A stretch of DNA of 64,000 bases. Source: Halolamina sediminis (lineage in GTDB: Archaea > Halobacteriota > Halobacteria > Halobacteriales > Haloferacaceae). The position numbers and the translations under genes were made by a program. Under the pieces are notes generated by a model. That model was not told the DNA's origin, made no database searches, and saw only the letters and a list, made by a program, of their open reading frames with translations. The first letter of the stretch is position 1. Each line of letters opens with the position of its first letter. Shown here piece by piece: positions 18,520-46,166 of this stretch. The stretch is from positions 992,001 through 1,056,000 of the forward strand of contig NZ_CVUA01000001.1 of NCBI RefSeq assembly GCF_001282785.1. Reading direction: 5' to 3'.

Positions 18520-18636
18520 GTACGCAGATAGTGGCTCCTGCGAGGAAAAGCCGTTGCGGCCGGGGCAGTCGAGCGGTCGCGGCAGGTCGCGCGCCGAGAT
18601 CGGTACACACGACGACGCCATGGGCTCTGAAACTGC

Positions 18637-18673
18637 GGTACGACGGCCACAGTCGGTCGCGCGCCGTCGTCTA
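18637..18673 (-). repeat. Fragment of the 28.9-kb hairpin repeat
   Basis: Positions 18650-18671 are identical over 22 bases to the reverse complement of 28956-28977. The preceding bases back to about 18637 also align with several mismatches. It lies just downstream of the geranylgeranyl reductase stop codon. Confidence 0.6.
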
Positions 18674-18679
18674 TTCCGC

Positions 18680-19912
18680 CTACTCGGAGAGCCGTTCGCG
18701 TGCGAACTTCGCGAGCAGCGGCACGTCGCTCAGGTGGAGTAGCTTCCGCATCGCCCCGACGTCGCCGGCGTTGACCTTCGCCAGCGTCTCCTCCTCGGTC
18801 TCGTTCAGGTCGGCCATCAGCGTGTCGTACCGGGAGTTCGGCGCGAGATACAGCAGTTCGGTCATGAGCAGGCGCTCGCGGGCCCGCGGGGCGACCTCGC
18901 TGTGCCAGAGCTTGTTGTACACCGCCATCGCCGACGCCGACGTGTCGGGGTCCTCGGGCGTGAGACAGCGGTCGGCGGTCGTCGCCGCCGCGCGGCCGGA
19001 CTGCATCCCCTTGTGGATCCCTTCGCCCCAAAGCGGGTCGATGGTGGGGACGGTGTCGCCGATCGCCATGAAGCTGTCAGTGCTGAGCTCGCCCGGGGTC
19101 TGGATGTGGGCCGAGCCGCGGTGGACCTTCCCTTCGATGCGCTTGGCGTCCTCGAAACGGGGGTCGGTGTCGAGCCAGTACTGGAGGTAGTCGTCGATCC
19201 CCATCCCCTCCTTGCCGTGACGCTGGTGGCTGTCGTTCTGGATGTAGCAGATCCCGACCTTGGCCTCGTCGCCGCCGGTGTGGAAGATCCACGAGTAGCC
19301 GCCGGGTGCGAGATCGTGGTCGAGTCGGAGCATCATCGAGTCGGTCAGGTCGGCGTAGTCGGGGTGGTCGATCTCGACGCCTTCGAGCTCGTACTCGACG
19401 CCGATGGCCTGCTTCCCGCGTTTGAGGTCGCTGACGCCCAGATCCTTCGCCAGCGGCGCGGCGGGGCCGGTGGCGTCGACGAGGATGTCGGCGTACACCT
19501 CCTCGTCGCCGTTGTAGCGAACGCCCACGGGCTTGCCGTCCTCTTTGATGGGTCGAGAGACGCGGGCGTCGAACCACACCTCCGCACCCTTCTCGCGGGC
19601 GTCCTCGACCATCCACTGCTTGAACTCGGCGAACTCCAGTACAGCGCCGGGCTGATTCTGGACGTAGTGACGGTTCGGCGACTCCAGTACCACGTCGTCG
19701 GTGTAGTTCATCACCACGTCGTCGGGGACGCCGAAGGCAGCCATCATCGACGGGAACGTGCCGGCGGTCGACTTGTTGCTCTGACGCGGGAACTCGTCCT
19801 CCGACTCCAGTTCGAGGAGGACGACGTCGTAGCCTCGCTGGGCGAGGTCGCGGGCACACTGTGCGCCCGCGGGTCCGGCCCCGGCGATGACCACGTCAAA
19901 ACGGTCGGACAT
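18680..19912 (-). CDS. Geranylgeranyl reductase family flavoprotein
   Basis: A protein of 410 residues. The FAD-binding motif is VVIAGAGPAGAQCARDLAQRG, followed by YADILVDATGPAAPLAKDL and the second FAD motif FMAIGDTVPTIDPLWGEGI. Archaeal members reduce geranylgeranyl chains of membrane lipids (digeranylgeranylglycerophospholipid reductase) or menaquinone side chains. This paralogue is more divergent than the core lipid enzyme, so the exact substrate is open. ATG 19912 starts the conserved MSDRFDVVIAG. Confidence 0.87.
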   Translation of the reverse strand: MSDRFDVVIAGAGPAGAQCARDLAQRGYDVVLLELESEDEFPRQSNKSTAGTFPSMMAAFGVPDDVVMNYTDDVVLESPNRHYVQNQPGAVLEFAEFKQWMVEDAREKGAEVWFDARVSRPIKEDGKPVGVRYNGDEEVYADILVDATGPAAPLAKDLGVSDLKRGKQAIGVEYELEGVEIDHPDYADLTDSMMLRLDHDLAPGGYSWIFHTGGDEAKVGICYIQNDSHQRHGKEGMGIDDYLQYWLDTDPRFEDAKRIEGKVHRGSAHIQTPGELSTDSFMAIGDTVPTIDPLWGEGIHKGMQSGRAAATTADRCLTPEDPDTSASAMAVYNKLWHSEVAPRARERLLMTELLYLAPNSRYDTLMADLNETEEETLAKVNAGDVGAMRKLLHLSDVPLLAKFARERLSE

Positions 19913-20150
19913 GAACACACGAAACGCCGTGTCCGTAATGAGTGTTGCTAACTCCGCAGCCAACGCTGCGAATCCGTGGCGTACGCCGGCAGTTCCCACC
20001 GGCTCGGATGGAGCGGAACGACCGGAATCGGCCCGCCGTGATCTCCCGTACGGGCTCGGTCCCGACTGAGTCACGGCTTCGCTACCGAAACACCCGCAGG
20101 CTTGCTCCCATCCGTGTTTTGTTACCCCACTGTCCCGTCTGGGGAGCTGG

Positions 20151-27303: not shown

Positions 27304-27567
27304 TCAGAGCATCCCTTCGGCTTCCAGCCCCTCCAGCACGTCCTCGACGAGAGAGTCGACGTCGCTGTAGGGGAACTCCTGCTGCCCGCCGAGCTTGGCG
27401 GCCAGCTCCATCGCGGTGAACGACACGTCGCCGGCCTCGAACCGCGTGCTCGGTCCCTCGGGGAGCGCGGGCACGAGGTCCATCTGACTGTCGACCGGGA
27501 AGTCGGCGCCCTCGAAGGCGTCGGTGAGCTGTGCGCGGAGTTCGCGTTCGGTTTCCTCGTCGACCAT
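27304..27567 (-). CDS. MTH865 family protein
   Basis: An 87-residue protein with the MTH865 helical fold pattern: ELRAQLTDAFEGADFPVDSQ, then ALPEGPSTRFEAGDVSFTAMEL and ending in VEDVLEGLEAEGML. This is an EF-hand-like archaeal/bacterial family of unknown function. The ATG at 27567 is preferred over an in-frame TTG nine bases upstream. Confidence 0.85.
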   Translation of the reverse strand: MVDEETERELRAQLTDAFEGADFPVDSQMDLVPALPEGPSTRFEAGDVSFTAMELAAKLGGQQEFPYSDVDSLVEDVLEGLEAEGML

Positions 27568-27674
27568 ACTCCCCAATGCCGCCGAACGCCGGATAAGCGT
27601 TTCCGAAACGCGGGAGAACCTCCCGTGGGTTCCCTCGGCGGGGAGAACCCCCGACGATTGGCCGGAACCGCCCC

Positions 27675-28752: not shown

Positions 28753-29252
28753 CCGACCACGTCGACGAGAGTCGGAGACTCTCGTCTGCCATCGAGGGAC
28801 TCCGTCCCTCGGGCGACCGGAAGCCGTCGGCTTCCGGTGACGTTGTCAGAAGCGGAGCTTCTGACTGCCAGTCGCACGTAGTCCGACGACGGCGCACGAG
28901 CCACTGCGCGCTCCGTCGCGCGGTCACTGAACCCATGCCGTGATCGTGTGTGACCGACGACGGCGCGCGACCGACTGCGGCCTCCGGGCCGCAGTACGGA
29001 GCCGACGCCGTGATTGTGTGTGACCGACGACGGCGCACGACCGATTGCGGCCTCCGGGCCGCAGTACGGAGCCGACGCCGTGATCGTGTGTGAGCGTGGA
29101 GGGGCCGCTCCTGCCGGCTTTCGACCCCGCACACGCCGCGAACCGGGGCCCGTTCCTACGCGGTGGGATTTGCCGACACCCACTCCTAAGAGGAAACCCC
29201 TTTCTCGGATAGGGTCGAATCACGAGTACACCCGTCCCCGAGTGACCAACAG
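28753..29252. repeat. Hairpin array with CGGAG-type loops and a 70-bp tandem repeat
   Basis: A gene-free 500-bp stretch. Four near-perfect palindromes come first: 28764-28786 (10-bp stem, loop GGA), 28793-28811 (8-bp stem, loop TCC), 28816-28838 (10-bp stem, loop GTC) and 28845-28865 (9-bp stem, loop GGA). A fifth is at 28904-28923. Then a 70-bp unit occurs at 28938-29007 and 29008-29077, with a partial copy from 29078. Each unit holds the palindrome CTGCGGCC-TCCG-GGCCGCAG or a near copy. After about 29100 I see only the promoter region of the small zinc ribbon gene. Confidence 0.85.
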
Positions 29253-42313: not shown

Positions 42314-43984
42314 CTACGAACGGTCTCCCTCGGCGTCGGCTTTCAGGAGTTCGACGACGAATACCGCCCCGCGCTGGTCGTTGTCCTCGACCCACACGTC
42401 GCCGCCGAACTGGTCGGTGAGCGTGTACACCAAGTAGAGGCCGATCCCCGACCCCGGGCTATCGAGCCCCTTCTCGCCCTTGCCGAAGACCCGTCCCTTC
42501 TGCTCGTCGGGGATCCCGGGGCCGTTGTCGGCGATCCGAATCCGGACGACGTCGTCGGTCTCGACGGCGTCGACCGTGATCTCGGGCGTCTCGCTGTCGT
42601 TGTGCCGGACGGCGTTCTCGAGGAGGTTCCGGAACACCGAGGGGAGCATCTCGTTGGCCAGCACGTCGACCGCCGGGATCTCGCCGTCGACGCGGAACTC
42701 CGCCTCGGCGAACGACTCCCGGACGGCCTCCAGTTCTGTCTCGAGGTGCCGCCGGAGGCTGGTCGGTCGCGGCTCGATCGCAGAGTCGCCGGAGAGCGAC
42801 TCGACGAACTCCCGGACGGTCTCCGTGACCTCGATCACGTGGTCGGACTTCCGGAGCACCCGATCCAGCGCGTCCTGTCCCTCGGAATCGACGTGGGGCG
42901 TGAGGGTCTCTGCCCATCCCCGGATGACGGCCATGTCGTTCCGGATGTCGTGGCGGACCACGCGGTTCAGCGCTTCGAGCTGTTCGGTTTTCTCCTCTAG
43001 CTGCTGCCGGTACGCCTCCCGCTCGGTCACGTCGTTGATCGTCACCAGCTGACCCGTGGTTACGCCGCCGGTCGTGAACGGCGTCGTCGAGATCTGGTAG
43101 TACCGGCTCCCCTCGCTGGCGTCGATCTCCAGCACGCCCGGGTCGTCGAGACGGCTCGCGATGACGGGGACGATCTCTTCCACTCGGTTGCCGATCGAGT
43201 CCTCGAGTGCGGGGAACAGCGCGGCCGCGGCTTGGTTGTAGTCTCGCACGCGATCATCCGGGTCGAGGAACACGGCCGGTTCGTCGCTGTCCCCGGTCAG
43301 TTGAACCGTCTCGAAGCGGTTGATGTAGACGAACAGCGTGCCGACGGCGAACACCGCGACGCCCATGGGCTCGTACATCAGCGGCAGGAGCCACGGGATC
43401 TGTTCGCCGAACACGGTTGCCCCGGCCGGAACGGCCGTTATCGCGGCCAACACGACCAGCGGCCGGCTGTCGGTTCCGGTGTGGTCGAACCGCTCGATCA
43501 GCATGAAGAAGCCGACCCCGATGACGACGTAGGACAGCCCCAGTGTGAACCAGTAGAGGACCCCGTGCTGGATCGCCAGGTGGGGGAACGGATCGGTCGT
43601 CCACTCGGTCGTGAAAAAGAGGTTGTGGACGGGGTTGGTGAGTTTGAGGACCACGAACAGGAGGAACACACCGATCATGAGCCGGAGATAGGGCGTCTGC
43701 CGCGGGGGGCGGCCGGTGTAGGCGGCACAGAAGTACACCCACGCCGCGACGGCACCGAACGCGAAGATGAACCCGATCGTGTACGACGCGATCCGCACCG
43801 GATCGGTGGGCGCGAGCAGGTAGCCGACGTACCCCAGCGACCAGACGGTAACCGAGAGCAGCAGCGCGACCAGTCCCTTCCTGGTGCCCGGGTGTTCGAT
43901 CCGCCGTGCCCGCGGGATCGAGAGGAGACAGGCTAGCGCGGAGACGACGAACACGCCGACGTGTCCCAGGAAGAGTAGGTCCAT
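42314..43984 (-). CDS. Sensor histidine kinase with 7TM N-terminus and PAS domain
   Basis: A protein of 556 residues. Seven membrane segments fill residues 1-220 (7TMR-HisK type). A PAS domain follows (VFLDPDDRVRDYNQAAAALFP). The phosphoacceptor region is LNRVVRHDIRNDMAVIRGWA, with His in the HD-x-x-N context typical of haloarchaeal kinases. The ATPase domain has RNLLENAVRHND (N box), IADNGPGIPDEQ (G1) and SGIGLYLVYTL (G2). The signal is unknown and no response regulator is adjacent. Confidence 0.92.
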   Translation of the reverse strand: MDLLFLGHVGVFVVSALACLLSIPRARRIEHPGTRKGLVALLLSVTVWSLGYVGYLLAPTDPVRIASYTIGFIFAFGAVAAWVYFCAAYTGRPPRQTPYLRLMIGVFLLFVVLKLTNPVHNLFFTTEWTTDPFPHLAIQHGVLYWFTLGLSYVVIGVGFFMLIERFDHTGTDSRPLVVLAAITAVPAGATVFGEQIPWLLPLMYEPMGVAVFAVGTLFVYINRFETVQLTGDSDEPAVFLDPDDRVRDYNQAAAALFPALEDSIGNRVEEIVPVIASRLDDPGVLEIDASEGSRYYQISTTPFTTGGVTTGQLVTINDVTEREAYRQQLEEKTEQLEALNRVVRHDIRNDMAVIRGWAETLTPHVDSEGQDALDRVLRKSDHVIEVTETVREFVESLSGDSAIEPRPTSLRRHLETELEAVRESFAEAEFRVDGEIPAVDVLANEMLPSVFRNLLENAVRHNDSETPEITVDAVETDDVVRIRIADNGPGIPDEQKGRVFGKGEKGLDSPGSGIGLYLVYTLTDQFGGDVWVEDNDQRGAVFVVELLKADAEGDRS

Positions 43985-44027: not shown

Positions 44028-44460
44028 GGCTTTGGACACAGCCGCGGCATCAGGCTCAGTGGTGCCGACACGGGAGTCGGCACAGTTCGCTCGCCGTCGT
44101 CGGACTACGTCCGACTGGCAGACGAGAGCCGACGGCGCTCGTCGACGCGGCTGGTTTGAACACAGCCACGGCGTCTAGCTCCTTGCTCGCCGGACGGAGC
44201 CGGCAAGCGGTCACGCGCCGCGGGGGAGGGGGTTTGAACACAGTCACGGGATCCGCTTCGGGGCGACGGTACGGAGGCCGTCGCGGCTCGCGCCCCGTGA
44301 CTGGTTTGAACACAGTCACGGCATCGAGCTCCGTGGCCGCGCGACGGAGCGCGCGGCAGGTCACGCGCCGTGACTGGTTTGAACACAGTCACGGCATCAG
44401 TCTCAGTGGTGCCGACACGGAGGTCGGCACAGTTCGCTCGCCGTGACTGGTTTGAAGGAA
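44028..44460. repeat. Tandem palindromic array, about 73-bp units
   Basis: Units begin at 44028, 44153, 44231, 44303 and 44376, and a partial one at 44449, each opening with a version of GGTTTGAACACAGTCACGG. At the unit junctions GTGACTG-GTTTGAACA-CAGTCAC forms a 7-bp hairpin. Inside each unit is a second palindrome with an ACGGAG or ACGGGA loop and a different stem: 44062-44083, 44189-44204, near 44255-44275, near 44333-44352 and 44409-44430. The rest of the 43985-44495 gap holds only the promoters of the flanking genes. Confidence 0.88.
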
Positions 44461-46009: not shown

Positions 46010-46020
46010 TCACTCCGCGG

Positions 46021-46166
46021 TGCCGTTCGCGGTCGGGCTGTCTGTCTCGACTTCAACGCGCGTCTCTTGTGCCGTTCGCGGTCGGGCTGTCTGTCTCGAC
46101 TTCAACACAGTCTCTTGTGCCGTTCGCGGTCGGGCTGTCTGTCTCGACTTCAACGCGCGTCTCTTG
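46021..46166 (+). repeat. Three-copy 48/49-bp tandem repeat
   Basis: Units start at 46021, 46070 and 46118, each opening TGCCGTTCGCGGTCGGGCTG and ending CTCTTG. The middle one has ACACAG where the others have ACGCGCG. It directly follows repeat copy B, which also has GTTCGCGGTCG just beyond its end in copy A (5397-5407), so the array may have grown from the element's flank. Confidence 0.85.

Follow-up and report, generated by a model that had tools for sequence, protein, structure and literature searches.

A genus-wide family of imperfect hairpin repeats, mostly placed at stop codons, in Halolamina

What is the array of palindromes, alike in their flanks and different in their stems, that precedes a gene for a DRG-type GTPase in Halolamina sediminis? 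It lies in a 64,000-nucleotide stretch of the genome (here, the window) and comprises five units of about 73 nucleotides at 44,029-44,456, with conserved flanks and differing, near-perfect stems. A preliminary description made from the sequence alone had reported five such units, the first one long, and this is what we found: start-to-start spacing is 124, 78, 72, and 73 nucleotides, and the leftmost unit owes its length to an inserted extra pair of hairpins at about 44,107-44,154. The motif TTTGAACACAGTCACGG matches five times at ≤3 mismatches (0.04 expected; none of 100 shuffles reached 5). The sequence GGTTTGAACACAGTCACGG is exact in three units (44231, 44303, and 44376) but diverged in the two leftmost. 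All of the stems named in that description are present; units 1 and 5, however, have the same one, GTGCCGAC/GTCGGCAC, which leaves four different stems among the five units. The sense direction of the array is the minus strand, on which a unit reads TAACCAGTCACGGC, GCGTGACC, stem, CTCCGT, opposite stem, ACGGAGC, CGAT, and GCCGTGACTGTG, and forms a long imperfect hairpin: outer arm, GA/GA internal loop, variable stem, and a loop that is usually CTCCGT (Table 1). The array sits between two divergent promoters rather than behind a stop codon, at 42 nucleotides from the start of the DRG gene, an arrangement that is the same in four other Halolamina species.

Table 1. Features of the window that bear on the hairpin family (units numbered in sense order)
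Coordinates	Strand	Feature	Basis
18602..18676	-	Single decayed unit just past stop of gene 18680-19918 (-)	Covariance model R1, 53.9 bits
27234..27306	-	Very decayed unit abutting stop of gene 27304-27576 (-)	R1, 23.1 bits, E 0.003
28753..28880	+	Remains of first unit at stop codon (TAACCGACCACG), broken by a chain of unrelated hairpins	Sequence; same arrangement in genome G001 (L261)
28880..29094	+	Second family array, three units, downstream of M42 peptidase gene (Pfam)	R1 matches
42314..43984	-	HisKA_7TM histidine kinase gene, downstream of array in its sense direction	Pfam PF16927, PF02518, PF00512
44031..44106	-	Unit 5, stem GTGCCGAC/GTCGGCAC	R1, 70.1 bits
44107..44154	-	Extra-hairpin block between units 4 and 5, GACGAG../GTCGGACGTAGTCCGAC type	Sequence reading; like blocks in L005, L010, L261
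44155..44230	-	Unit 4, stem GCCGG/CCGGC, loop CTCCGT, 5' outer arm decayed	R1, 60.6 bits
44233..44307	-	Unit 3, stem CGACGG/CCGTCG	R1, 75.2 bits
44308..44380	-	Unit 2, stem GCCGCGCG/CGCGCGGC, loop CTCCGT	R1, 83.8 bits; predicted fold -42.2 kcal/mol, z = -4.9
44381..44453	-	Unit 1, nearest DRG gene, stem GTGCCGAC/GTCGGCAC	R1, 75.3 bits
44461..44475	+	Probable BRE/TATA region of DRG gene, bounding array	Sequence around TTTAACG, ~28 nt before start codon
44498..45608	+	DRG-type GTPase gene (name from preliminary description)	Array also 42-43 nt upstream of start in four other Halolamina species, pointing away

The array is a member of a genus-wide Halolamina family of ~73-base hairpins, with about 35 arrays per genome, that is undescribed in the literature searched. 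An initial DNA search of the home genome (2.84 Mb, single contig) gave some 25 intergenic matches; R1, a covariance model built from 32 units, gave 71 matches there at E ≤ 1. These fall into 35 clusters, and one cluster, which sits inside a gene, is probably false. R1 matched 18 to 81 times per genome in all seven Halolamina genomes examined, while, in a set of 60 genomes, those from the family and order outside Halolamina gave one match, in a single genome. Scanning 392 genomes of the order added three weak matches in other genera (L285-L287), which we discarded: two lie in coding sequence and one is a simple palindrome. Outside Halolamina there is one clear site, at the 3' end of herA in one sister genus (G027 and G407), where Halolamina also has one. 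The Rfam 15 covariance models yielded no match at E ≤ 1 and none at gathering scores. Spread by plasmid or phage was rejected because plasmid and phage sequences gave no family match, and two viral contigs found by pattern score as chance with the model; pattern matches in bacteria (Streptomyces and others) were put down to chance, the scan having covered 257 Gb of high-GC genomes.

What characterizes the family is place, not loop. Of the 100 Halolamina arrays for which an upstream gene was called, 70 begin ≤6 nucleotides from its stop codon in sense orientation, and the stop forms the first three bases of the unit in most of these. Co-directional gaps hold 48 arrays in sense and 5 in antisense orientation (p = 7e-10; orthologous sites are not independent). 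The preliminary description had proposed a check of strand and position, and the family is strongly biased in both. Genes were called by a codon-usage ORF finder trained on these sequences, which missed a few small genes; some apparent exceptions to the placement come from such missed genes or from other hairpins that have been inserted at the stop, as at 28,753-28,880. The array at the DRG site is an exception: it does end right before the DRG promoter, as described, but this promoter context is atypical of the family. Host genes include those for aconitase, superoxide dismutase, pyrophosphatase, ATP synthase, proteasome, MCM, and lipoyl synthase; we dismissed a single regulon, since these are mixed, unrelated housekeeping genes. 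The MCM gene upstream of one array (L016 3-1499) contains an intein (Pfam PF14890). A readthrough peptide was likewise dismissed, because unit length varies and the stop offset is -3, -2, or -1, so that no frame is kept.

The loop ACGGAG, by contrast, had been put forward as fixed, and as the part that is recognized while the stem matters by pairing only. ACGGAG, which that description gave alongside ACGGGA, is the commonest loop and no more: its sense form, CTCCGT, occurs at the tip of 80 of 201 units in the genus (40%), other loops are common, and the outer CGG/CCG, the GA/GA internal loop, and the stop-codon position are at least as constant. In the window, only 2 of 26 ACGGAG sites lie in perfect palindromes with arms of ≥6, both inside the array; a scan by loop would therefore find little, whereas the structure model finds the family. 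The other half of the proposal fared better, in that the inner stem keeps pairing without keeping sequence. A 22-pair model has 90.2% of cells paired and 136 double-change cells versus 40 in shuffles; sequences found later, mostly from other species, have 93.1% paired and 439 double-change cells versus 129, in an alignment produced by fitting to the model. Covariation is strong evidence for the pairing, and this extends to species that did not contribute to the model. The GA internal loop, present on both strands, is flanked by covarying pairs 18-52 (C-G, U-A, and U-G) and 21-49 (C-G, G-C, and A-U). A candidate pseudoknot between the CTCCGT tip loop and the downstream ACGGAG was rejected for want of covariation (2 double-change cells versus 2.2 in shuffles).

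Pair 18-52, beside the GA/GA loop, has 49 G-U and 3 A-C cells, and G-U is favored only there and at the poorly paired 23-46; elsewhere it is about as frequent as A-C, and units with exactly one non-Watson-Crick pair outside these two positions have 11 G-U and 12 A-C. Such near parity is unusual for a selected RNA helix and weakens a simple RNA-helix reading. In multi-unit arrays, Watson-Crick pairing amounts to 96.7% in the unit touching the stop codon compared with 88% in later units (p = 3.5e-6); it is the first unit that appears to be under constraint. Many tandem copies have the 3' outer arm of the first unit but a 5' arm that is unrelated and no longer pairs (e.g., L133 1336-1485 and L076 6913-7061), as if duplication took the core, the 3' arm, and the following flank.

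How the stems change became apparent from sites common to several species. With each genome read only in part, 34 of 77 site groups are common to ≥2 species. Across 92 orthologous site pairs, the coding flank is 86.7% identical and the first-unit stem arm is 52% identical, yet still paired; when the best-matching units are compared, arm identity is 64%. For unrelated sites the figure is about 46%. The stem changes include 101 GC↔CG and 114 GC↔AT pairs. Between species, then, stems are exchanged en bloc while pairing is kept, with loop and flanks unchanged. At herA, for example, stem and loop read CGACGAC-CTCCGT-GTCGTCG in the home genome but TCACGCG-CTCCGT-CGCGCGA in G002, while the flanking sequence is almost identical; here the two arms have been replaced together and not by stepwise compensation. 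This exchange suggests a gene-end signal in which shape counts more than sequence. Part of it is unit turnover within arrays, as 15 orthologous pairs have an identical arm in some unit. Arms common to unrelated sites occur in 95 units, slightly above a Markov expectation of 78 ± 8. Arms are equally alike within and between genomes, which led us to reject genome-wide homogenization; with so little sharing between sites and no excess within a genome, there is no sign of a recent burst of transposition. Of the orthologous sites in G001, about half are empty, which makes the element dispensable, and others have decayed or partial units at the same place. Loss explains the empty sites as well as mobility does.

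The herA site bears on origin. HerA ends in TRHG-E/D-stop in many haloarchaea, including genera without arrays, and in Halolamina and the one sister genus the C-terminal codons, CACGGCGAGTGA, are the 5' arm plus GTGA of the first unit. This coincidence suggests that the family may have begun at the herA 3' end. In the home genome, herA has the codon AGA in this C-terminal stretch, and the opposite arm matches it (herA 3' ends L288-L291, L311, and L315).

Several known systems resemble the family in part. ERIC/IRU and other small bacterial intergenic repeats are imperfect palindromes in intergenic gaps, as here; their stem sequence is kept, whereas Halolamina stems vary. Integron attC sites are hairpins in which the outer boxes are conserved, spacers follow, and the terminal stem varies; they were compared for their shape, and Halolamina units have no cassettes between them. 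A further parallel is with REP/BIME elements (the RAYT-associated GTAG and CGTC families), which are dispersed extragenic palindromes near 3' gene ends, clustered, with internal mismatches, and sometimes supply the stop codon (PMC3733652). Halolamina units share all of this: they are extragenic, clustered at 3' gene ends, and supply stop codons. They differ in being ~73 nucleotides rather than the 20 to 40 of REP, archaeal, arranged head to tail only, sense oriented at the stop, not conserved in stem sequence, and free of any need for RAYT; the GTAG tag is found at the palindrome foot in only 24 of 201 units. The family would work like REP at gene ends, and by the tests made (tag and RAYT) it is not a member. 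No REP-like repeats of haloarchaea were found in the literature searched. Transcripts of Haloferax volcanii are ended by T stretches and by some hairpins (PMC7237163); like the Halolamina units, these signals lie just downstream of genes, with hairpins near 3' ends. The Haloferax hairpins have not been presented as a family of repeats, however, and the Halolamina unit has no T stretch in or after it in the home genome.

Our preferred reading, held tentatively and at somewhat less than even confidence, is that these are REP-like, structured elements of gene 3' ends that came into the Halolamina lineage at an early stage, have been inherited vertically, and act in the transcript; we infer the function in the transcript. 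As the last ribosome leaves, the hairpin would close at the stop codon and mark or protect the mRNA 3' end, whether it pauses RNA polymerase, fixes the endpoint of 3' trimming, or does both, as proposed for bacterial REP elements. A factor may read the constant parts (outer CGG/CCG, GA/GA loop, and preferred CTCCGT tip), with the stems needing only to pair. Tandem copies would be by-products of slippage under weaker constraint, and new stems probably arise by short-tract exchange between units. In favor of this reading are the covariation, the sense placement at stop codons, the sites common to several species, the tighter pairing of the first unit, the exchanged arms, the lack of a single regulon, and the G-U excess at pair 18-52; the near parity of G-U and A-C over most of the stem, the T-tract results given below, the DRG site, and the empty sites in G001 speak against it. 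A more elaborate version seems quite doubtful: a dedicated stop-codon RNA element, read by a factor at translation termination or 3'-end formation, whose stems a specific process would rewrite in paired blocks, leaving only the shape to be inherited, and which was perhaps born at the herA 3' end and then spread to other gene ends. If the elements instead replaced T-tract signals as intrinsic terminators, their place, sense orientation, and tandem copies would make sense, and in one tested Haloferax case a hairpin ends 59% of transcripts (PMC7237163). The home genome fits, with a T-tract outside the array at 1 of 29 array gene ends versus 17 of 58 other gene ends (p = 0.004) and no run of four T's inside the 24 arrays examined there. 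However, this deficit was not reproduced in five other species (11 of 57 array ends versus 24 of 131 others; p = 0.84), so substitution for ordinary terminators is not established. We dropped T-tract replacement as a pattern confined to the home genome; no U-run follows the hairpin either, and the terminator reading strikes us as improbable.

Alternatively, the folded single strand of a REP-like or MITE-like DNA element might serve a transposase or recombinase, stop codons being tolerated or preferred targets. High copy number restricted to one genus, strict Watson-Crick pairing without a general preference for G-U, and the example of bacterial REPs, likewise located at gene 3' ends and able to provide a stop codon (PMC3733652), are what one would expect of it. 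We nonetheless consider it unlikely. Neither of two carrier genomes, G001 and G002 (79% complete in the case of G002), has the Y1/RAYT transposase domain PF01797, on which ground RAYT/IS200-type mobilization was rejected; units are no more alike within a genome than between genomes, stem sharing between sites is only slightly above expectation, and phage or plasmid copies were not found. The home genome has IS200-type Y1 transposases as broken pieces only (G000:C1:2716873-2717231 and 2554893-2555084; L207, L210, and L213). The units could also be functionless products of replication, quasi-palindromes perfected by template switching and multiplied by slippage. That GC↔CG changes are about as many as GC↔AT is not expected from point-by-point compensation and agrees with this, as do the stems often common to tandem copies of one array; but non-palindromic parts are conserved (the GA/GA internal loop and covarying pair 21-49), the units are sense oriented and abut the stop codon, the best-paired unit is the one at the stop, and the family is absent from all but one other genus sampled. 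We regard a neutral origin as rather unlikely.

Signals for 3'-end formation and mRNA decay in archaea are poorly known, and the family offers about 35 natural sites per genome, with empty orthologous sites as controls. Site pairs in which both arms have been swapped naturally, with loop and flanks intact, make the roles of sequence and structure at gene ends testable, and the en bloc replacement of paired arms represents an unexplained mutational or recombinational process.

Two other repeats caught our attention. Chains of short, unrelated GC-rich hairpins with TGCC or TGACG linkers make up a second kind of element, which interrupts the hairpin family within the terminal loop of a unit, between neighboring units, or directly behind the stop (28753-28880 and 44107-44154 in the window; L005 1600-1680; L010 1730-1800; L261). 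Lastly, the gap downstream of the DRG gene holds three 49-bp tandem copies of GTGCCGTTCGCGGTCGGGCTGTCTGTCTCGACTTCAACGCGCGTCTCTT (46020-46166) that, by eye, are unrelated to the hairpin family.
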